A stretch of DNA of 37,617 nucleotides, from IMG/VR virus record IMGVR_UViG_3300007734_000654, positions 1 through 37,617 of that record; one strand, 5' to 3'. Source of the DNA: a virus. Of this stretch, positions 2,918 through 22,548 are shown one piece after another (the stretch's first letter is position 1; each line of letters starts with the position of its first letter). The position numbers were made by a program, and so were the translations under genes. The notes under the pieces are model-generated. The model made no database searches. It worked only from the letters and a program-made list of their open reading frames with translations, and was not told the DNA's origin.

Positions 2918-3952
2918 ATGAGTCTTGAACAGAGACTTAACGACCTGCCGGAAGGTATTGACTCTTCTGATGTAGTTGAATTGCGTAGAGCGTTAATGAA
3001 TACGCAAAAAAGATTATTAGTAGCAAAACATAAAATAAGTGAATTGGTAGAGGCTACGCATAATGCTTCCTATGAAGCAACGCTGTCTGCTGGACCAATA
3101 ACTAATGTAAAAGAAAAACAGTTCCCTAAGAGTAGTAAAAAGACTGAGGTTGCTTTATGGCATTTGACGGATTGGCAGGGTGCTAAAAAAACTACTTCGT
3201 ATGATTCTAATGTAATGCGTACGCGGGTAATGAACTTTGTTGAAAAAGCGGTAACAATTACTGATATTCAGAGAGCCGACCACCCAGTCAATAATGTAAC
3301 TATTATGTTTGGTGGGGATATGGTGGAAGGTTTGTTTAACTTTCCTGGTCAGGCGTTTGAAATAGATTCCACTCTTTTTGAACAATATGTAAATGTTTCC
3401 AGGTTATGTGTAGATGTTGTTCGGTATGCGCTTGCGAACTATAAGAGTGTGACGGTTGTTCCTGAGTGGGGTAATCATGGCAGGATTGGTAGTAAGCGCG
3501 ATAATGTTCCGCGTTCGGATAACTTCGACCGTATGTGTTATGAATTGGCGCGGCAACTTCTTGCGGGTGAGAAACGATTAACTTGGCAGGAATGTCCTGA
3601 CGATATTCAAAGAGTACAAATTGGAAACTATAAGGCTTTGTTGATTCACGGTGATGAAGTAGGGCGAAATGGTTTTGCTTCACCAGGGGCAATAGTTCAG
3701 CACGCTAATCGTTGGCGTTCCGGTGCGTATCCCTGGGATTTTCGTGATGTGTATATCGGTCACTACCACACTCACGCGGAGTGGGCTATGGCGAACGGTC
3801 AGGGTTCTGTGTATCAGACTGGTTCTACTGAATCCGATAATCGTTATGCGGGTGTAATGTTGGCGGCAAGTGCTACGCCTTCGCAACGACTACATTTTGT
3901 TGACCCAGACAAGGGTCGTGTGACTGCTTCCTATAAAGTGTGGTTGGACTAA
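2918..3952 (+). CDS. Calcineurin-like metallophosphoesterase
   Basis: A 344-residue protein with a coiled-coil-like N-terminus (residues 1-60) and a full set of metallophosphoesterase motifs: H82/D85 in WHLTDWQ, D134 in GGDMVEG, N186-H187 in WGNHG, H244 in LIHGDE, and H282/H284 in GHYHTH. These residues bind two metal ions. The family includes DNA nucleases of the Mre11/SbcD type and phosphodiesterases. Phage versions are often labelled Mre11-like, but nuclease activity cannot be read from sequence. The start has no obvious ribosome site. Its stop codon overlaps that of the minus-strand gene in a tail-to-tail arrangement. Confidence 0.9.
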   Translation: MSLEQRLNDLPEGIDSSDVVELRRALMNTQKRLLVAKHKISELVEATHNASYEATLSAGPITNVKEKQFPKSSKKTEVALWHLTDWQGAKKTTSYDSNVMRTRVMNFVEKAVTITDIQRADHPVNNVTIMFGGDMVEGLFNFPGQAFEIDSTLFEQYVNVSRLCVDVVRYALANYKSVTVVPEWGNHGRIGSKRDNVPRSDNFDRMCYELARQLLAGEKRLTWQECPDDIQRVQIGNYKALLIHGDEVGRNGFASPGAIVQHANRWRSGAYPWDFRDVYIGHYHTHAEWAMANGQGSVYQTGSTESDNRYAGVMLAASATPSQRLHFVDPDKGRVTASYKVWLD

Positions 3953-4158
3953 CCTTCTTCTTCTTCTGTTTCAAGATAGTCTGTAACTAATGTCATTACG
4001 GTTATGTCAATGTCATTTTCTTTTGCGACAGTTACACCGTCTTTAAATAGTTTAAGTGTGCGTGCGCATAGGTCATCTAATCCATCAGGATAGGTAAGTT
4101 CTGTTTGCGTATTAACAGAAAGACCACCAAGCCGTATTTCTATTGAGGAATATGCCAT
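3949..4158 (-). CDS. Lone minus-strand small acidic protein, unknown
   Basis: A 69-residue acidic protein and the only convincing minus-strand gene. The sequence looks like a folded protein: a beta-like start (YSSIEIRLGGLSVNTQTEL), then helices (LDDLCARTLKLFKDGVTVAKEN, ITVMTLVTDYLETEEEE). There is no ribosome site, but TACAAT lies 5 bases before the ATG, which would place transcription start at the ATG itself, a leaderless gene as is common in actinobacteria. It faces the metallophosphoesterase and its promoter faces the iteron cluster. An early regulator or host-takeover protein is possible. I do not recognise the family. Confidence 0.6.
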   Translation of the reverse strand: MAYSSIEIRLGGLSVNTQTELTYPDGLDDLCARTLKLFKDGVTVAKENDIDITVMTLVTDYLETEEEEG

Positions 4159-4163
4159 GGTTC

Positions 4164-4169
4164 ATTGTA
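4164..4169 (-). promoter_or_regulatory. Candidate leaderless -10 element for the minus-strand gene
   Basis: On the minus strand this reads TACAAT, ending 5 bases before the ATG at 4158. That spacing puts the expected first transcribed base at or near the start codon. Only a weak -35 (TTCTTA-like) can be seen upstream, so this rests on the -10 match and the absence of a ribosome site. Confidence 0.4.
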
Positions 4170-4207
4170 AATGATTAACAGTTTATTAAGAACGCTCTAG
4201 GGCGTGT

Positions 4208-4347
4208 CGTTTTTAGGCTGTCCTAGCCTGTCTTTTGCCTGCCCCTGGTCTGGACTACCCTGGCTCGTTTTAGGCTGTCCTAGCCTGTCCTAGCCTGGTC
4301 TAGCCAGCCAATTTCAGCCTAATCGAGCCTAAATCAGCCTAAAAAAC
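4208..4347. repeat. AGCCT iteron-like repeat cluster, candidate origin or regulatory site
   Basis: A 22-bp stretch containing TAGGCTGTCCTAGCCTGTC occurs perfectly at 4211-4232 and 4268-4289. TCCTAGCCTG occurs at 4221, 4278 and 4288. AGCCTAA then recurs at 4316, 4326 and 4336, a 10-bp spacing that keeps all copies on one face of the helix. AGGCT and AGCCT are inverted copies of each other, so each long repeat is also a dyad. The two ends (TTTTTAGGCTG near 4210, CAGCCTAAAAAA at 4335) form a long-range inverted repeat. This is what a replication initiator or repressor binding array looks like, though a terminator role is possible. Confidence 0.6.
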
Positions 4348-4826
4348 TTCCAAAATGGGCTGTACAAGTGTTACAGCACCCGTTAGGATTTACTTAGTAC
4401 CAAGAATCCTCCCGCAAGGAAGGTCGTTCGAATAAGTTTCTTGGGAAACCGCACCACTTGACAACTACACAGAGCGGGTTGGTAAATCAAATCAAACCGG
4501 CAGTTTTCAAAACTTTTCTAAGTGAGGCGGAATCGTTCGTCACTTAGACCGAATCGGATAAATAAGTTGAGAAACCAAACTACCGGCAAGGTTGGCAGGC
4601 AAAATAAACCGCACGTATCACCACAGGTGATTAACCAGAGAAACGCGATGACATTAACTTAACCAGAGTTAAAAGAGCGAGTGACATTTCAAGGCCAGCG
4701 TCAACGGGAATAAAAGCCTAAGCCAGATTGAAGTTGCCCGATGAAAAACAAACGGATTACAAAAACATTTAAGACGAAACCATTACAGATTCCTTTTGTA
4801 ATGGTCGTGGAGGTTCGCATCTTCAC
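4348..4826 (+). ncRNA. Candidate large structured noncoding RNA (or structured leader)
   Basis: About 480 bases with no credible gene but many short perfect helices on the + strand: 4359-4364/4372-4377, 4400-4406/4438-4444, 4518-4525/4540-4547 (8 bp), 4617-4622/4626-4631, 4654-4659/4667-4672, and 4780-4787/4797-4804 (8 bp). AACCAGAG occurs at 4633 and 4661. Purine-rich linkers (GAAAC, GAAAA) between helices are typical of structured RNA. Size, phage context and lack of coding recall large phage RNAs such as GOLLD, which are known from lake metagenomes, but I cannot match a consensus. TTGACA at 4458 is a possible -35 with only a poor -10. It could instead be part of the origin. Confidence 0.45.
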
Positions 4827-4868
4827 CTGATGAGTCAGCGACAACTACTAACAAGGGATAAACAAATG
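4827..4868 (+). promoter_or_regulatory. Repeated translation leader, copy 1 (hairpin + AAGGGATAA)
   Basis: A short CTGA/TCAG hairpin is followed by AACTACTAACAAGGGATAA, then CAAATG. The AAGGGA serves as the ribosome site and fixes the start at 4866. The same module occurs before 5457 with a stronger hairpin and, without the hairpin, before 5050. Confidence 0.6.
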
Positions 4869-5045
4869 AGTCCAGAAGATTACCGAACAAAAATTATTTA
4901 TTGGGAAAAAACATTGAGTGATTTAGGAGCAACTAAAAATTGGTTTTGGCTAGATAACATGAAAAAAATGTACGGTGCTGAAGGTTGGATTGACCAATAC
5001 GCGATGCAACTTGCTACCGCGTCTAAAACTACTAACAAGGGATAA
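4866..5045 (+). CDS. Small early protein, unknown
   Basis: A 59-residue protein read from the ATG at 4866, chosen over the upstream in-frame ATG at 4830 because the AAGGGATAA leader shared with the next two genes sits just before it. It is rich in Trp and Tyr (YWEKTL, NWFWLDNMKKMYGAEGWIDQYAMQL) and probably all-helical. First gene of the rightward early operon; such genes in phages often encode host-takeover factors. I recognise no family. Confidence 0.6.
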   Translation: MSPEDYRTKIIYWEKTLSDLGATKNWFWLDNMKKMYGAEGWIDQYAMQLATASKTTNKG

Positions 5046-5052
5046 GCAAATG
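5027..5052 (+). promoter_or_regulatory. Repeated translation leader, copy 2
   Basis: AACTACTAACAAGGGATAAGCAAATG, here written in two parts as AACTACTAACAAGG and GATAAGCAAATG, lies partly inside the end of the upstream gene. It repeats the leader of the 4866 gene almost base for base, without the hairpin, and sets the start of the next gene at 5050. Confidence 0.6.
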
Positions 5053-5361
5053 GGACTTAACTACAAAGACTTCGCATGGGGAGAAAGAATTACTTCCGAC
5101 GAAGATTCGGTTGACCGATTTATGCACGAAGGTTTAGTAATCCCACACGCGCCATCAGTTGGCGATATATGGCACGCCGCAGAATGGTTAGCGACTTATG
5201 GTTCTGAAACAGCAGAGGAATCAGAAGGTTTGGCGAATGTGATTGCCTTCTTAATCTTAACTGCTGAATCAAAAGAAAAGCGCACCGCAACAAATACAGC
5301 GAAACGCAATTACGCTAAAGAGCATGGTTTGAAAGTTTCTCAAGTTCGCATCAAGAAATAA
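5050..5361 (+). CDS. Early protein, unknown
   Basis: A 103-residue protein. A frame open from 4975 exists, but the repeated AAGGGATAA leader and the loss of protein-like sequence upstream favour 5050. The body is mixed acidic helices (DEDSVDRFMHEGLVIPHAPSVGDIWHAAEWLA, ESEGLANVIAFLILTAES). The C-terminus is strongly basic (KEKRTATNTAKRNYAKEHGLKVSQVRIKK), which could bind nucleic acid. Family not recognised. Its stop overlaps a possible 16-codon leader ORF. Confidence 0.65.
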   Translation: MGLNYKDFAWGERITSDEDSVDRFMHEGLVIPHAPSVGDIWHAAEWLATYGSETAEESEGLANVIAFLILTAESKEKRTATNTAKRNYAKEHGLKVSQVRIKK

Positions 5362-5456
5362 TGGCGAAACATTTGGTACTGCTTCCCTTTACCAAATGTC
5401 TTACGGTGTAACCGTAACTGATGAGCCATCAGTAACTACTCACAAGGGATAAGCAA
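5361..5456 (+). promoter_or_regulatory. Three-hairpin leader with a possible 16-residue leader peptide
   Basis: Three consecutive perfect hairpins: 5369-5378/5390-5399 (10 bp), 5401-5406/5411-5416 (6 bp), and 5418-5423/5427-5432 (CTGATG/CATCAG). An ATG overlapping the previous stop opens MAKHLVLLPFTKCLTV, ending at 5411 inside the second hairpin. The third hairpin belongs to the repeated translation leader that ends at the 5457 ATG. This is the shape of a translation-coupled attenuator, but the leader ORF may be chance. Confidence 0.45.
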
Positions 5457-5741
5457 ATGACGCTCAACGAACTGATAGAAGAATTGCAAGACATTCTTGA
5501 AGAAAATGAATCACTTGGTGAAACGGAAGTGAATGTTGCTTTTCAACAAAATTATCCGCTAGCAGGATTTGTTGCAAATGTAACTATTGTTAATACTGAT
5601 GCTGATGATGATTGCGAACACGACACAAATGCTGAATGTCGTATTATGGATTGTGCAGGAGATGTTCCGCAAGTGTGGATTGCTATTACTGATAACAATG
5701 TTGCGCCTTATGCTCCTCGTGCTGCTTGGAGGAACAACTAA
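5457..5741 (+). CDS. Conserved small phage protein, unknown function
   Basis: A 94-residue acidic protein. The N-terminal LNELIEELQDILEENESLGETEVNVAFQQNYPLAG pattern recurs in small early proteins of many actinophages and cyanophages and is followed by a beta-rich part (VNVTIV, VWIAITDNN). A stretch of Asp, Cys and His residues (DADDDCEHDTNAECRIMDC) may bind metal. No function is known to me. The start is fixed by the third copy of the AAGGGATAA leader. TAATG overlap couples it to the next gene. Confidence 0.7.
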   Translation: MTLNELIEELQDILEENESLGETEVNVAFQQNYPLAGFVANVTIVNTDADDDCEHDTNAECRIMDCAGDVPQVWIAITDNNVAPYAPRAAWRNN

Positions 5742-7063: not shown

Positions 7064-7239
7064 TGACTAGCAAAACTAAACAAATGAAATGGCGTTGCGG
7101 TTACTGTGAAGAATGGAAGGAAATGAGTACCGCACAAATGGTTTGGAACTTCACAGATAAATCTTATGCGCACCCAATCGGTTTTTGTTCTGAAGCGTGT
7201 ATTAAACACGCACAGGTAGAAATCGAATTACGAAAGTGA
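7063..7239 (+). CDS. 58-residue zinc-finger-like protein
   Basis: Starts MTSKTKQMKWRCGYCEEWKEM and ends GFCSEACIKHAQVEIELRK. The CGYC and CSEAC pairs, the second followed by His, match the layout of the protein at 5947, so the two may be paralogues. It starts in a TAATG overlap behind AGAGGCAAAG. Function unknown; a small metal-binding adaptor is likely. Confidence 0.7.
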   Translation: MTSKTKQMKWRCGYCEEWKEMSTAQMVWNFTDKSYAHPIGFCSEACIKHAQVEIELRK

Positions 7240-7252
7240 GTTGCACCATATT

Positions 7253-7411
7253 ATGGATGATTTAATGAAAATTGACGAATTTCGTGATTTCATGTTTCAT
7301 ATTATTTTAGCCCATTCTCTTGAATGTCCTGGATGCAAAGAGAAAATAACCGCTTTAGAAAATAAACTATTCGGAGTTGAAATACCAAAAGGGGAGGATT
7401 GTGAGTTGTAA
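7253..7411 (+). CDS. 52-residue CxxC protein, unknown
   Basis: MDDLMKIDEFRDFMFHIILAHS is an amphipathic or partly hydrophobic helix, followed by LECPGCKEKITALENKLFG with one CxxC. It may dimerise to complete a zinc site. There is no strong ribosome site before the ATG at 7253, so this is less sure than its neighbours. It overlaps the next gene by 11 bases, which fits translational coupling. Confidence 0.5.
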   Translation: MDDLMKIDEFRDFMFHIILAHSLECPGCKEKITALENKLFGVEIPKGEDCEL

Positions 7412-9361: not shown

Positions 9362-10189
9362 ATGAACGCAACACTACAAGTCACTAACGAACAAACCTGG
9401 TGGGAAGATAAACAACTCGCCGCGTTAAAACAAATCGGATTAGCCGATGCACCTAAAGCAGAACTAGCAGTCTTTTTACACTACTGTCAAAAGACTGGTC
9501 TTGACCCATTCGCGCGACAGATTTATATGATTGCTCGTGGTGGTCGTTACACGATTCAAGCAAGCATTGACGGTCTGCGCATAGTGGCACAACGCAGTCT
9601 TGAATATGCGGGGCAGGCTGGACCGTATTGGTGCGGAGAAGATGGCGCGTGGTCAGATGTATGGCTTAGCGATACGCCACCTGTCGCGTCTAAGGTTGGC
9701 GTGTACCGTAAAGGTTTTACTGAACCGTTGGGGGCGGTAGCAAAGTTTCAGTCTTACTGTCCTCTTGGTCGTGACAATAAGCCTATGGGTTTGTGGACGA
9801 AGATGGCTGATGTGATGCTCGCAAAGTGTGCTGAATCGTTAGCGTTGCGGAAAGCGTTTCCACACGACTTGTCGGGTATTTATACGAGTGAAGAAATGGC
9901 GCAGGCTGATACGCAAGATAAGCCAGCGAAGGTTATCAAACTGGTGACGGATACACCGCCAGTTGAATTAACTGAAGCAACTCAACCTACTGAAACTAAG
10001 GTTGAGTTTCCTGACGGTAAGTTACAAGAGATTGAAGCAAAGATTTCTTTAACCGCAAACATAAATGATTTACGCAAACTTTATCGCGAGAACAGTATGT
10101 ATTTAGACATTGAGTTTCATTCTGATGCGCATCAGGGTGTTACTGACTTGCGTTCCTTGTTTGAGAAATCAAGAAAGGAGTTGGAGTAA
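9362..10189 (+). CDS. bet: Bet/RecT-type single-strand annealing protein
   Basis: A 275-residue protein. The core (ELAVFLHYCQKTGLDPFARQIYMIAR, GRYTIQASIDGLRIVAQRSLEYAGQ, VGVYRKGFTEPLGAVAKF, WTKMADVMLAKCAESLALRKAFPHDLSGIYTSEEM) is characteristic of the Bet branch of RecT-like recombinases. They anneal complementary single strands during phage recombination and concatemer formation. The C-terminal 80 residues are divergent and polar. A Cas4-like nuclease at 11199 and SSB at 14510 complete a likely recombination set. The ribosome site is AAGAAGGAAGG. Confidence 0.93.
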   Translation: MNATLQVTNEQTWWEDKQLAALKQIGLADAPKAELAVFLHYCQKTGLDPFARQIYMIARGGRYTIQASIDGLRIVAQRSLEYAGQAGPYWCGEDGAWSDVWLSDTPPVASKVGVYRKGFTEPLGAVAKFQSYCPLGRDNKPMGLWTKMADVMLAKCAESLALRKAFPHDLSGIYTSEEMAQADTQDKPAKVIKLVTDTPPVELTEATQPTETKVEFPDGKLQEIEAKISLTANINDLRKLYRENSMYLDIEFHSDAHQGVTDLRSLFEKSRKELE

Positions 10190-11839: not shown

Positions 11840-12766
11840 ATGACTTGGATAAAAATAAATGATTCATTTCCAGACCACCCAAAAATTATCGGGTTGTCAG
11901 ACAAAGCGTTTCGCATACACATAAGCGGTTTGTGTTACTGCGGAACTTATTTAACAGATGGACTTGTACCTATGGCGGTGGCAAGCAGGCTGGCTGATAA
12001 CAATATAGTTTGGCTTAGCGAATTAACTTCTGCTGGTTTGTGGATAGAAAAATTAAGCGAGAACGGTTTTGTTATACATGACTATCTTTTACATCAGAGT
12101 TCTAAACGACAAGTAGAAGATAAGAAAGAATTGTCGAAGGCGCGTGTTGAAAGATTTAGACAGAAGAAAGAAACCGCAACTGGTAACGCAATTAGTAACG
12201 CGTTAGTAACGCGACCAGAATACAGAGAACAGAATACAGAGAACAGAGAACAGAGAAATAATAAGAAGGCTGATTTAGAGACCCTTTTAGACCTGCCTAT
12301 CGCTAAGAGGCAGGAAACCCTGCCACAAGCCATAGGTGACGGTTCTAAGGAGACTTCCCTATCTGGCCAGTATATTCCAACCCTTCCCAGGAGTCAGACG
12401 GCCAAAACCGCAATTCTAGCCGTTAGAGAGCGTTTGGCAAGTGCCAGAGATGCCGGCATGAACGCTTGGAACCTGTCTCTGCTCATTGAGGAAGCCTGGG
12501 ACGATTTACACGAAAAAGATGATATGACCGCGTGTTATGGATTAACAGTTTGGTATGTTTCCGAATTACTAAGCAGAGATTTAACAAGTACAGAAATCGC
12601 TCGCATTACACAACTTACTAAACGCTACGGCAGGATTGCTTTGCTTGCGATAGATATTGCCGCAGGGAAAGATTTAACAAAAAACAATACCGAAGGTGAT
12701 TTAGTTAGTTACGCAACAAAAGTTGCTTCCAGTATGTATAAAGAAAGAAAGGCAAATAATGGTTAA
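11840..12766 (+). CDS. Replication initiator / DnaD-like winged-helix protein
   Basis: A 308-residue protein. The first 110 residues (WIKINDSFPDHPKIIGLSDKAFRIHISGLCYCGTYLTDGLVP, VWLSELTSAGLWIEKLSENGFVIHDYLLHQ) are a winged-helix form common in phage replisome organisers. A Gln/Arg/Glu-rich linker follows at about 115-145 (short CAGAGAACAGA DNA repeats near 12230), then a helical C-terminal domain. No helicase, primase or polymerase gene is seen, so it probably recruits the host machinery. It is the best candidate to bind the repeat cluster near 4.2 kb, which is untested. Start follows AGGAAGGGATATGTA. Confidence 0.72.
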   Translation: MTWIKINDSFPDHPKIIGLSDKAFRIHISGLCYCGTYLTDGLVPMAVASRLADNNIVWLSELTSAGLWIEKLSENGFVIHDYLLHQSSKRQVEDKKELSKARVERFRQKKETATGNAISNALVTRPEYREQNTENREQRNNKKADLETLLDLPIAKRQETLPQAIGDGSKETSLSGQYIPTLPRSQTAKTAILAVRERLASARDAGMNAWNLSLLIEEAWDDLHEKDDMTACYGLTVWYVSELLSRDLTSTEIARITQLTKRYGRIALLAIDIAAGKDLTKNNTEGDLVSYATKVASSMYKERKANNG

Positions 12767-15202: not shown

Positions 15203-16252
15203 ATGTCGTTAAGAATACTTTTAACTGGTGCTGGTGGTTTTGTTGGACATCACACATTAGAGCATCTGTTAAAAAATACTGATTGGGAAATTGTTGCCCT
15301 AGATAGTTTTAGAAATAAGGGATTCAGTTCAAGACTTAGAAGCGTATTTGCGGCTAATCCGCACGAAGTTAAACGCGTTACTGTTATCACGCATGATTTA
15401 ACTACACCCATTGATATTGTTACAAGCACAAATATTGGCAAAATAGATGTAATCATTAACAATGCCTCTGAATCTCATGTTGATAGAAGCATTACACACC
15501 CACGACCATTTGTAGAAAACAATGTTTCGCTTGCTATTACAATGTTAGAATACGCGCGAACAGTTGAAAATCTAAAAGTTTTTGTACAAGTCAGTACAGA
15601 TGAAGTTTATGGTCCAGCAATAGATGGACTTCCACACCCTGAATATGACACTATGCTTCCGTCTAATCCTTATTCAGCGAGTAAGGTATCGCAGGAAGCA
15701 ATAGCAATTTCATATTGGCGAACATACGACATTCCCGTAGTAATTTCTAACACAATGAACATTATCGGTGAGCGTCAAGACATAGAAAAGTTTATCCCCA
15801 AAACAATGGTTAACATTTTAGCAGGAAAGAAAATGAATGTTCACTCTAATTTTATAGATGGCAAGTGGGTATCTGGCACTAGATACTACCTACACGCTCG
15901 CAATCAAGCAGATGCACTACTATTTGCCATTAAACATTGTTGCAAAAACCCTAATAAGTTTTCAGAAGGAATTAAACGCCCACACAGATTCCATGTGGGT
16001 GGAGAACGCGAAGTTGCTAATGATGAAATGATTTCCCTTATTGCTGAATATATGAACATGAAAGGCGATTGGGTTAATTATGAAGATGTTGGAATGACTA
16101 GACCAGGACACGATTTAACTTATGCGTTAGAGCGAACAACATTAGACGAGTGGGGTTGGGTAGCACCTATTCCATTCAAGGATTCACTTAAACAAACCGT
16201 TGAATGGACAATGAAAAATAAAGAATGGTTGTTAGGCGAGGAAAGTGCCTGA
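15203..16252 (+). CDS. rmlB: RmlB-like NDP-glucose 4,6-dehydratase
   Basis: A 349-residue extended short-chain dehydrogenase. It has the NAD-binding GAGGFVG, ASESHVDRSI, T132-D133-E134 in STDEVYG (the catalytic trio of 4,6-dehydratases, unlike the SS...YG of epimerases), Y157/K161 in YSASK, and RPGHD with TVEWTMKN near the end. RmlB turns dTDP-glucose into dTDP-4-keto-6-deoxyglucose. No other rhamnose pathway gene is present. It is the first gene of the sugar cassette, with AAGGAGAAGG, and overlaps the mutase gene by 8 bases. Exact substrate (dTDP- or another NDP-sugar) is not certain. Confidence 0.85.
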   Translation: MSLRILLTGAGGFVGHHTLEHLLKNTDWEIVALDSFRNKGFSSRLRSVFAANPHEVKRVTVITHDLTTPIDIVTSTNIGKIDVIINNASESHVDRSITHPRPFVENNVSLAITMLEYARTVENLKVFVQVSTDEVYGPAIDGLPHPEYDTMLPSNPYSASKVSQEAIAISYWRTYDIPVVISNTMNIIGERQDIEKFIPKTMVNILAGKKMNVHSNFIDGKWVSGTRYYLHARNQADALLFAIKHCCKNPNKFSEGIKRPHRFHVGGEREVANDEMISLIAEYMNMKGDWVNYEDVGMTRPGHDLTYALERTTLDEWGWVAPIPFKDSLKQTVEWTMKNKEWLLGEESA

Positions 16253-19022: not shown

Positions 19023-19465
19023 TGGCTAACAGTAGAAAGGGAAAACACCTAGACCCTGACACACTAGAAAAAGAAGCACAAGTGTTATCTCTCAGGAGAT
19101 TAGGTTTCACTTTCGACCAGATAGCAAAACAATTAGGATACGCAAGTAGTAGCGGAGCCTATAACGCTTACCGTAGAGCCTGCCTTAAAATTATTTATGA
19201 AGAAGTTGAAGAAACCCGCAAAATGGAAATGGATAGGTTAGACAACGCACAAATGAGAATAATGACTGGCGTTAACAATGGAAACATTGCCGCCATTAAC
19301 ACTTTGTTAAGAATTATGGAACGCAGAGCAAGACTGTTAGGTCTAGACCAACCGATGAAGGCGCAAGTGGAAGTGACTAACTATGACACCAGCAGTATTG
19401 ACGCAGAAGTCTCCCGACTTGTCGCGCTCCTTAATAGCGGCACGCAGAGTCAACTGGACACATAA
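19022..19465 (+). CDS. terS: Terminase small subunit
   Basis: A 147-residue protein. An N-terminal helix-turn-helix (SLRRLGFTFDQIAKQLGYASSSGAYNAYRRAC) would recognise the packaging site, and a long central helix (EEVEETRKMEMDRLDNAQMRIMTGVNNGNIAAINTLLRIMERRARLLGL) would form the oligomer. The order before the large subunit supports this. The 3' end overlaps terL by 83 bases. Confidence 0.82.
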   Translation: MANSRKGKHLDPDTLEKEAQVLSLRRLGFTFDQIAKQLGYASSSGAYNAYRRACLKIIYEEVEETRKMEMDRLDNAQMRIMTGVNNGNIAAINTLLRIMERRARLLGLDQPMKAQVEVTNYDTSSIDAEVSRLVALLNSGTQSQLDT

Positions 19466-20729
19466 CCTTGCGCGCCCAGAGCAGTTACCAGACGAAGATT
19501 ACGAATGGCATACTTGGCTTTATCTTGCTGGTCGTGGTGCAGGGAAGACGAGGACGGCGGCAGAGTGGCCTGCTTGGCAGGCAACAAGGTTTCCAAAGAC
19601 TCGGTGGGCTATTGTCGCTCCTACATACTCTGACGCACGCGACACCTGTGCCGAAGGTGAATCAGGAATCATTAACATTCTCAGAGAGTACGGAACACTA
19701 AAAGATTACAACCGAAGTATCGGTGAAATCTTTTTAACAAATGGCACGCGCATTAAACTTTTCTCAGGTGAGGAACCTGACCGTTTGCGTGGACCACAGT
19801 TTCACGGTGGTTGGTTTGATGAGTTAGCGGCATTTAAGTACCCTGAGACTTGGGACCAGTATCAGTTTGGTTTGCGTCTAGGTAACGCTCCACAGACTCT
19901 TGTAACAACTACACCGCGTCCGACAAAGATTATTAAAGATTTGATTGCGCGTGATGGCATACGACTTATTCGCGGCTCAACTTTTGATAATGCTAAAAAT
20001 CTTGCCCCGTCTGCTCTTGCTGAATTAAAACTACGCTACGAAAACACGCGACTAGGCAGACAAGAATTATATGGCGAACTCTTAGAAAGCATAGAAGGCG
20101 CACTCTGGACACGCGAACTAATCGAATCGGCACGCGTACAGAACGCACCGCCACTCGTTCGTATCGTTGTTGGTGTTGACCCTGCTGTTACGAATAATGA
20201 GAATAGTGACCAGACCGGAATCGTTGCCGCAGGAATAACAGCAGACGGACATTATTATATTCTTGATGACAAATCTATTTACGCTTCACCTGATGCTTGG
20301 GCGCGCGTAGCGGTAACACTTTATCAAGACTTGAAAGCAGACAAGATTGTTGCTGAAACAAACAACGGTGGAGATATGGTTATTTTACTTATGCAACAAG
20401 TTGACCCCACAGTAGCAACAAAGAAAGTAACAGCAACGCGTGGAAAACAATTAAGAGCAGAACCCATATCAAGTCTTTATGAACAGAAAAGGGTTCACCA
20501 TGTAGGATACTTTCCTGAACTTGAAACGCAAATGTGTGAATGGACACCTGCTAGTAAAGATTCTCCCGATAGACTTGATGCGCTCGTGTGGGCTATTAGT
20601 GAATTAAATGCTGGCGGTTCCAGTATGCTTGCGTTAGCAAGTATGGCAGTATTGTGTCAAGCGTGTGGTATGCCGTCACCTAAAATGGCTAGTGTTTGCT
20701 TCACTTGTGGCACGCAACTGAAAGGTTAA
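19383..20729 (+). CDS. terL: Terminase large subunit with C-terminal zinc ribbon
   Basis: A 448-residue protein with ATPase motifs (Walker A AGRGAGKT at 49-56, Walker B GGWFDELAAF, the coupling TTTPRP) and an RNase H-like nuclease domain (VGVDPAVTNNENSDQTGIV, VAETNNGG, DSPDRLDALVWAI). It drives DNA into the prohead and cuts it. After the nuclease domain there is an unusual extra piece: C425, C428, C439 and C442 (CQACG...CFTCG), a zinc ribbon. The start at 19383 lies in the terS gene, behind GTGGAAGTGACTAACT. No downstream ATG precedes the ATPase region. Confidence 0.95.
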   Translation: MTPAVLTQKSPDLSRSLIAARRVNWTHNLARPEQLPDEDYEWHTWLYLAGRGAGKTRTAAEWPAWQATRFPKTRWAIVAPTYSDARDTCAEGESGIINILREYGTLKDYNRSIGEIFLTNGTRIKLFSGEEPDRLRGPQFHGGWFDELAAFKYPETWDQYQFGLRLGNAPQTLVTTTPRPTKIIKDLIARDGIRLIRGSTFDNAKNLAPSALAELKLRYENTRLGRQELYGELLESIEGALWTRELIESARVQNAPPLVRIVVGVDPAVTNNENSDQTGIVAAGITADGHYYILDDKSIYASPDAWARVAVTLYQDLKADKIVAETNNGGDMVILLMQQVDPTVATKKVTATRGKQLRAEPISSLYEQKRVHHVGYFPELETQMCEWTPASKDSPDRLDALVWAISELNAGGSSMLALASMAVLCQACGMPSPKMASVCFTCGTQLKG

Positions 20730-20733
20730 TGGA

Positions 20734-22548
20734 ATGGGTTTAATTGACAGGATTGCGACTAGAGTTGCGACTGAAATAAATAAAGCACCAAACCTTCCAG
20801 CAGGTGCAACTACTTTAACTGAAACACAAATGCGCAACGCCGCAAATAATAATACTTATGGCGTTTCAGATGCGTTACCTCGTAATCCTATTTTGCCTAT
20901 GATTCCTTTTGGTCCAGGGCAACCTCTAGTACCTGGCGCAATAAATCCGCTTACTGATTCAGGAAGACCTGACCCGCGTCGTAATGAGTTCCAGGTCGCA
21001 CAGAACATAAATGTTACAGAGACGCGTCCAATTTCTTTTGCTACTTTGCGTGGTGCGGCAGAGCAGATAGATATTTTGCGTAGATGTATTGAAGTATTGA
21101 AAAGTAAAATTGTTGGATTACAATGGGATATTGTTCTTGGCGAAGATAGTGTTGAAAAGATTATTGCTGAAATTGGTGGCACACAGGTTCGTGCCGCACA
21201 GATAGCGCGCGAGAAATATACTGATGAAATAAATAAGGCTAAACAATTTTGGGAACAACCAGACCGTTCTAACGGTTTTGTGTTCGCTGACTGGCTTAAT
21301 ATCGCGTTAGAAGAAATCCTAGTATTAGACGCGTGGACAGTCTGGCCTCAAAAAACGGTAGGCGGTGACTTGCTTGGGTTACAAATCCTTGACGGTGCAA
21401 CTATTAAACCTCTGATTGACGATAGAGGTATGCGACCAATGCCACCGTTCCCTGCGTTCCAACAAATCCTTTACGGTTTCCCACGCTCAGAGTTCACAGC
21501 ACCCACAGAGTCAGAAAAAACTGACGGAGAATTCACAACAGACGAATTAGCATATATGGTGAAGAATCGTAGAACGACTACCATATATGGTTATTCTCCT
21601 ACTGAACGCGCTCTTGCTGTTGCAGACATTTATTTACGCAGACAACAATGGTTACGCGCAGAATACACAGACGGTGTAACACCAGAGTTGTTAATGAAAA
21701 CCGATGCAACTTTTGGTAACAATCCAGACTTACTTCGCGCGTATGAAAACATTTTCAATAACGATTTAGCGGGACAAACAGAACAACGCAAACGCGTTCG
21801 CTTACTTCCTTCCGGTATGGAACCAATCCAATTTGATGGTTACGGTGAAAGATTCAAAGACACACTAGATGACTACTTAGTCAATTCAATCTGTGGACAT
21901 TACGGTGTGATGCCTAGCGAAATTGGTTTCAATCCTAAAGGCGGTTTAGGTGGCTCTGGTTTCCAATTAGGTCAAGCCGAATCATCTGAAGTCATTGGCG
22001 CAATTCCTCTTGCTAACTGGATTGCTCGAATGATTACCAATCTGTCTTATGTGTTTCTTGGTATGCCGCGTGAACTTGAATTTAAGTTTATGGAATCCGG
22101 TAGAACTGATAGTGAAGCAGACGCACGAACAAATGACATTAACATTAAGTCTGGTAATCTCACAATAAATGAATCCCGTTCGCGTAACGGTTTGAGTTTG
22201 ATTGACGCAAAAGAAGCAGACTTACCAATTATTGTTGCTGGCTCTGGCGCTTACTTTGTTACTCCTAACGGTATTTTGCCGTTCGATAATGCTCTTGCAA
22301 ATACTTCCACAGCAGTAGATGAACTAGAAGATACTTCTGTTAATGAATTAGGTGAGAAGTATGACGACACGGATACGGTTAAAGTACAGAAAGAAATCAA
22401 AGCGTTTCTTAGGTTTGTAAGGAAGTCACCTACACGCGCGTTTGATTTCAAAAGTGTTCCGGTCATTTACGCTGATGTGTTAAATAAGTTTGTAAGTGTT
22501 GCGGATTATGATTCAGCGCGTTGGTATGCCGAACGCTACTTGGCATAG
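20734..22548 (+). CDS. Portal protein
   Basis: A 604-residue protein following terminase. RPISFATLRGAAEQIDILRRCIEVLKSKIVGLQWDI, YGYSPTERALAVADIYLRRQQWLRAEYTDG, GLGGSGFQLGQAESSEV and a helical end are typical of actinophage portal proteins, which form the ring at the head vertex. Residues 1-60 are Pro/Asn-rich and probably flexible, and the last 80 are acidic then basic, perhaps internal to the head. It ends three bases before the MuF gene. Confidence 0.9.
   Translation: MGLIDRIATRVATEINKAPNLPAGATTLTETQMRNAANNNTYGVSDALPRNPILPMIPFGPGQPLVPGAINPLTDSGRPDPRRNEFQVAQNINVTETRPISFATLRGAAEQIDILRRCIEVLKSKIVGLQWDIVLGEDSVEKIIAEIGGTQVRAAQIAREKYTDEINKAKQFWEQPDRSNGFVFADWLNIALEEILVLDAWTVWPQKTVGGDLLGLQILDGATIKPLIDDRGMRPMPPFPAFQQILYGFPRSEFTAPTESEKTDGEFTTDELAYMVKNRRTTTIYGYSPTERALAVADIYLRRQQWLRAEYTDGVTPELLMKTDATFGNNPDLLRAYENIFNNDLAGQTEQRKRVRLLPSGMEPIQFDGYGERFKDTLDDYLVNSICGHYGVMPSEIGFNPKGGLGGSGFQLGQAESSEVIGAIPLANWIARMITNLSYVFLGMPRELEFKFMESGRTDSEADARTNDINIKSGNLTINESRSRNGLSLIDAKEADLPIIVAGSGAYFVTPNGILPFDNALANTSTAVDELEDTSVNELGEKYDDTDTVKVQKEIKAFLRFVRKSPTRAFDFKSVPVIYADVLNKFVSVADYDSARWYAERYLA

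Follow-up and report, generated by a model that had tools for sequence, protein, structure and literature searches.

A diverged representative of a family of large noncoding phage RNAs, with type II hammerhead structures, in an IMG/VR tailed phage

Gene content and layout of the locus

We analyzed all 37,617 nucleotides (the window) of IMGVR_UViG_3300007734_000654, a 37.6-kb record of a tailed phage with terminase (19383-20729) and portal (20734-22548) genes, together with a RecT-like gene at 9362 and a replication initiation gene at 11840-12766. The longest stretch of the window without an open reading frame (ORF) of at least 60 amino acids spans 4159-4829 (671 nt; runner-up, 313 nt) and is flanked by a 69-aa gene on the minus strand (3949-4158) and a 59-aa gene on the plus strand (4866-5045). 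A preliminary description, made without database searches, had pointed to a gene-free, hairpin-rich stretch at 4348-4865, and this claim held: the stretch is the longest of its kind, and the helices named there are exact, pairing 4518-4525 (CTAAGTGA) with 4540-4547 (TCACTTAG) and 4780-4787 (CCATTACA) with 4797-4804 (TGTAATGG). Its extent had to be corrected: the RNA probably starts at about 4396, positions 4771-4840 form a hammerhead that the description had missed (the second helix is stem III of this motif), and the leader at 4843-4865 carries a ribosome-binding site.

The divergent 69-aa gene, which anchors the RNA locus by synteny, is of unknown function and has no Pfam or PHROG match; relatives occur at 67 viral loci, and two aligned relatives show 51-59% identity. 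The 59-aa gene that comes first after the RNA is likewise of unknown function and without a match in Pfam and PHROG searches, and the second (103 aa, 5050-5361, plus strand; function unknown) has only two viral relatives, at 41%, and is preceded by a leader repeat without a hammerhead. An SbcD-like exonuclease gene (2918-3952; phrog_284) is 78-85% identical in 80 viral contigs, behind which the RNA locus is present or absent; among these best 80 relatives the RNA is mostly absent, while contig L013 carries it. Another contig, L087, entered the relative set through the leader repeat. The isolated lake phage DSL-LC01 has an exonuclease with 48% identity, yet only a 75-nt gap follows before another gene.

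Elsewhere in the window, the second ORF-free stretch (7064-7376, 313 nt) contains neither a hammerhead nor an Rfam match, a gene at 15203-16252 resembles NAD-dependent epimerase/GDP-mannose dehydratase and is a possible sugar-modifying auxiliary gene, and tandem repeats (12-nt and 7/14-nt units) at 12175-12257 within the replication initiation gene are perhaps a replication origin. Between the 69-aa gene and the RNA, short direct and inverted repeats at 4211-4345 (10-nt period TAGCCTGTCC, AGCCTAAATC) form a possible operator or iteron array, and AGCCT-rich stretches resembling them also lie 5' of the RNA in L013, L134 and L143.

We place the large structured noncoding RNA, which is free of ORFs, at about 4396-4806 on the plus strand. 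Both limits are inferred from sequence alone, with an approximate 5' end that depends on a putative promoter and a 3' end set by the predicted hammerhead cut. This promoter (4362-4389, plus strand) was inferred by eye and consists of TGTACA, 16 nt and TTAGGAT (-10-like TAGGAT at 4384-4389); a sigma-70 scan found no consensus promoter at 4362-4389. GTTACAG[AC]ACCCGT in the putative promoter region is common to the window and L229, a contig with a partial copy of the large RNA. Counting perfect helices with loops of 3-40 nt revealed a modest excess over chance, with eight of at least 6 bp (3.8 in shuffles; 11 of 300 shuffles as high) and three of at least 8 bp (0.3 in shuffles; 1 of 300 as high). 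The total folding energy was not significant (z = -1.5; 6 of 100 shuffles folded equally well), and the claim of a structured RNA therefore rests on comparison with relatives.

A large RNA family and the membership of the window

Loci were collected with the 69-aa gene as an anchor (alignment A1). Among its 67 viral relatives, some have a promoter-sized gap opposite the gene and others 340-1000 nt without a gene, in many cases ended by a hammerhead. One subfamily (14 contigs, alignment A2) comprises an RNA of ~620 nt with 135 predicted pairs, in which 93.4% of cells are paired. Two-sided changes were detected at 51 of these pairs (26.1 ± 2.8 in shuffles), covariation was 0.240 versus 0.106, and all slid controls fell far below the true structure. 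Because the structure was predicted from the same alignment, the percentage paired is favoured and more weight falls on the two-sided changes; relatedness is not taken into account by the shuffle control.

In the window, a conserved 3' domain at 4607-4714 (plus strand) forms a three-way junction, with CGCGATGAC, a hairpin and GAGCGAGTGACA, as well as AGCG, CAACG and AATAAA. The motif CGCGAnGAC...GAGCGAGUGAC, derived by comparing the window with L240 and L254 and scanned against viral contigs, returned 31 stretches, comprising 20 family members and 11 chance matches in coding DNA. A hammerhead core lay 55-106 nt downstream in 19 of the 20 family loci and in none of the 11 chance coding matches. 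With the pattern of the other subfamily, the core was again downstream in 19 of 20 loci, the remaining contig ending inside the hammerhead, which makes 38 of 40 loci with a downstream core across the two pattern-defined sets. Overall, the large RNA is present in 43 other IMG/VR contigs (20 from each pattern set, plus L143, L233 and L013), some of which are near-identical.

An alignment of the 3' domain (A5; 12 sequences, window excluded) showed covariation of 0.506 versus 0.158 when shuffled, with two-sided changes in 53 cells versus 19.5. The 3'-domain model R1, built from these 12 sequences and therefore also without the window, has a single window match, at 4607-4714 (33.9 bits, E = 9e-8). 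Since the motif behind R1 came partly from the window, we built a further model without the window, R2, from four loci that had been reached through synteny or the hammerhead pattern (L313 and L310, on the contigs of L240 and L250, together with L143 and L233), and it gave the same single match (35.4 bits, E = 4e-7). The rows of R2 were aligned by R1, which leaves a small residual dependence, and the tool itself describes its E-values as rough. The window RNA thus belongs, as a divergent copy, to a family of large noncoding RNAs found in phages, with membership established via its 3' domain. It lies opposite the 69-aa gene, as in many relatives, although not every pattern-found contig was checked for this arrangement. 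The 620-nt subfamily scores merely 15.8 bits with R1, and it is therefore tied to the window by synteny, by the hammerhead they have in common and by short motifs present in both.

The window copy has diverged strongly and lacks some features that relatives conserve. Its 5' half (~4396-4600) has no close homologue among the loci examined, with only short stretches aligning to L143, L233 and L234, and the helices of this half, including 4518-4525/4540-4547, are therefore unconfirmed by covariation. The preliminary description had proposed a structured plus-strand noncoding phage RNA that would be refuted by homologues without covarying helices; covarying helices are present in the homologues, and the proposal is supported, while its helix at 4518-4525/4540-4547 is exact in sequence without being confirmed in this way. 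Its failure to match the stretch to a known family also held for the large-RNA families of Rfam 15: neither the window nor the relatives searched match any of them, GOLLD and ROOL included. Hammerhead_II, in relatives, was the only family offered, and Rfam scans of the window itself came back empty. The GOLLD and ROOL covariance models gave no match at E up to 5 in the window, L013 and L087, or at E up to 1 in eight relatives. A blastn search of the RNA region from the window, L285 and L262 against the 50,697 phage records of INPHARED returned no match, and the 11 pattern matches in GTDB genomes are about the estimated chance number, none having a significant R1 score.

Long gaps in L035, L049, L057 and L060 were considered as RNA loci and rejected, since they look like ordinary promoter or small-gene regions. 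A shorter, possibly related noncoding RNA (~340 nt before a hammerhead) occupies the same place in L260, L265, L270, L273, L277, L278 and L280; the loop I/tail pair of their hammerheads, UCGC/GCGA, is that of the first window hammerhead.

Type II hammerheads before ribosome-binding sites

The structural descriptor identified two type II hammerheads on the plus strand, hammerhead 1 at 4771-4840 and hammerhead 2 at 5361-5431, the latter with a predicted cut after C5400. In hammerhead 1 the order is GAC-GAAA-stem III-UC, cut site, stem I-CUGAUGA-GUC, and the open stem II defines type II. Its parts are the core CGAAA (4775-4779), stem III (4779-4787/4797-4805), stem I (4807-4826), CUGAUGA (4827-4833) and a stem II of GAC (4773-4775) with GUC (4834-4836), and the predicted cut falls after C4806. 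The catalytic core CUGAUGA...GAAA...NUH with the cut-site C is intact in both copies, for which the descriptor gives 8/3/11 (hammerhead 1) and 7/5/10 (hammerhead 2) pairs in stems I/II/III. A pseudoknot between loop I and the 3' tail is possible in hammerhead 1 (UCGC/GCGA, 4815-4818/4838-4841) and has only 3 bp in hammerhead 2. As controls, the descriptor had 0 hits in 1.66 Mb of reversed locus sequences and 1 hit in total in 300 whole-window shuffles.

Model R3, built from 18 hammerheads of other contigs (covariation 0.704 versus 0.176 shuffled), matches exactly these two places in the window (32.4 bits, E = 1.1e-6 for hammerhead 1; 39.4 bits, E = 1.4e-8 for hammerhead 2). Rfam RF02276 (Hammerhead_II; gathering cut-off 37 bits) reported neither copy; among relatives, it scored L285 and L240 above the cut-off (37.6-41.8 bits) and L013 and L087 below it (27-32 bits), and some relatives have stem II mismatches (L087-type CUGAUGAUGG). 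The window copies are type II hammerheads by structure and not Rfam members; their self-cleavage is predicted, without cleavage data.

Both window hammerheads directly precede a copy of a leader repeat with a ribosome-binding site and ATG. Three near-identical leaders, AACTACT[AC]ACAAGGGATAA[AG]CAAATG, occur in the window where none is expected by chance, two of them behind hammerheads (4843-4868, plus strand, AACTACTAACAAGGGATAAACAAATG; and 5434-5459, plus strand, with the ATG of a 94-aa gene at 5457-5741) and one without (5027-5052), and L087 carries a related leader. This position is fixed more widely: all 46 distinct hammerheads, a set that excludes loci fetched through a pattern requiring AAGGG, have a Shine-Dalgarno sequence, an ATG and an open frame in the next 60 nt, compared with 225 of 4000 random positions. 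Many genes that lack a large RNA also have a hammerhead in this position.

Of the 18 RNA-linked hammerheads, 14 carry ACUAAAAG or a close variant as their stem III loop, against 1 of 182 others; for one of the 18, in L159, the link is probably not a true one. After cleavage, stem III would stay on the upstream RNA as a 3' hairpin, and its conservation only in that setting therefore fits a released RNA; the lack of this loop in the stem III of the window is a weak point for that reading. Intergenic hammerheads in L239, L241, L242, L244, L248, L251, L263, L264 and L281 (minus strand) have a long stem III with a loop resembling GAAGTNGGCAGTTTTTTAATCC. This is another conserved hairpin, and no large RNA lies directly before those hammerheads.

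The window hammerheads share with the published type II hammerheads (RF02276; Perreault et al. 2011, PMC3088659) the core, the three stems, the open stem II and the position before phage genes, as well as, by inference, the presence of several copies per transcript and, in hammerhead 1, a possible loop I/3'-tail pseudoknot. They differ in that the motif here ends a large structured RNA, with a stem III loop conserved only in that setting.

Proposed release of the RNA and competing explanations

The likely explanation is a large, folded, stand-alone phage RNA released from a polycistronic transcript by the hammerhead at its 3' end; transcription, cleavage and the independent existence of the RNA are all inferred. 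In this model, a promoter near 4362-4389 would drive the RNA and the small genes behind it as one transcript, and hammerhead 1 would fold during transcription and cut after C4806. The cut would free a folded RNA of ~410 nt, with the stem III hairpin as its new 3' end, and the downstream mRNA would start at G4807 with a short leader and a ribosome-binding site. Hammerhead 2, cutting after C5400, would likewise set off the next gene.

Among the alternatives, a long structured 5' leader that regulates the small genes behind it in cis, through translation or stability, with the hammerhead as part of the control, survives best, but we regard it as unlikely. In its favor, a ribosome-binding site follows the RNA directly, and a role in gene control has been suggested for type II hammerheads upstream of phage genes (PMC3088659). 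However, the genes behind the RNA differ (the 103-aa gene has just two distant viral relatives), hammerheads hold the same position where no large RNA precedes them, a cut at 4806 would separate the RNA from the message, and stem III is conserved only alongside the large RNA. A replication element, in which the short repeats at 4211-4345 mark an origin served by an RNA primer or origin RNA, is very unlikely. The 10-nt-period repeats 5' of the RNA and the replication and recombination genes downstream speak for it, but GC skew does not change near 4200, the covariation indicates structure at the RNA level, and the repeats inside the replication initiation gene (12175-12257) are in a more usual place for an origin. 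A decayed remnant, or a chance fold without function, is also a very improbable reading of the window copy. Its divergence, missing features and unremarkable folding energy might allow this, but held-out models match the copy and both hammerheads keep an intact catalytic core.

The preferred reading, a released RNA, invites comparison with the known large phage RNAs (Kretsch et al. 2025, PMC12286853). GOLLD resembles the RNA described here in its unknown function, size, ornateness and phage location, and ROOL in being a large ornate RNA of phages and prophages (659 nt, versus ~620 nt in one subfamily here). The window RNA differs from both in having no covariance-model match and in ending in a hammerhead, and no tRNA was found in the window, whereas GOLLD and ROOL are often near tRNA genes. 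The vrRNAs of VIPR (PMC13142463, preprint), ~100 nt with 9-16 YNNGG repeats, are also phage intergenic noncoding RNAs near short repeats; by inspection, the repeats here do not follow the YNNGG rule, and a guide RNA of the VIPR kind was rejected on that ground. The hammerhead is of a known kind and the large RNA has no Rfam family; their coupling, a hammerhead-terminated large phage RNA, was not found in the open PMC literature, a search that did not extend to subscription papers or to most preprints.

By analogy with GOLLD and ROOL, our working guess is that the free RNA may be an abundant scaffold-like or host-directed molecule, which is no more than a possibility. A bolder reading, which could as easily prove wrong as right, is that these RNAs form a new class among the large ornate RNAs of phages, with no relationship to GOLLD or ROOL. 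A built-in hammerhead would mature the 3' end, the same phages would also use hammerheads to divide their polycistronic messages into single genes, and the free RNA could be structural, possibly oligomeric, and act on the host. Few classes of large structured RNA are known in phages, and GOLLD and ROOL form RNA cages (PMC12286853). The family described here adds another of comparable size, which Rfam does not list and which occurs in several dozen phage contigs from the environment. If its 3' end is indeed made by the hammerhead, these ribozymes would have a concrete job, namely excising a folded RNA and single genes from a shared transcript.
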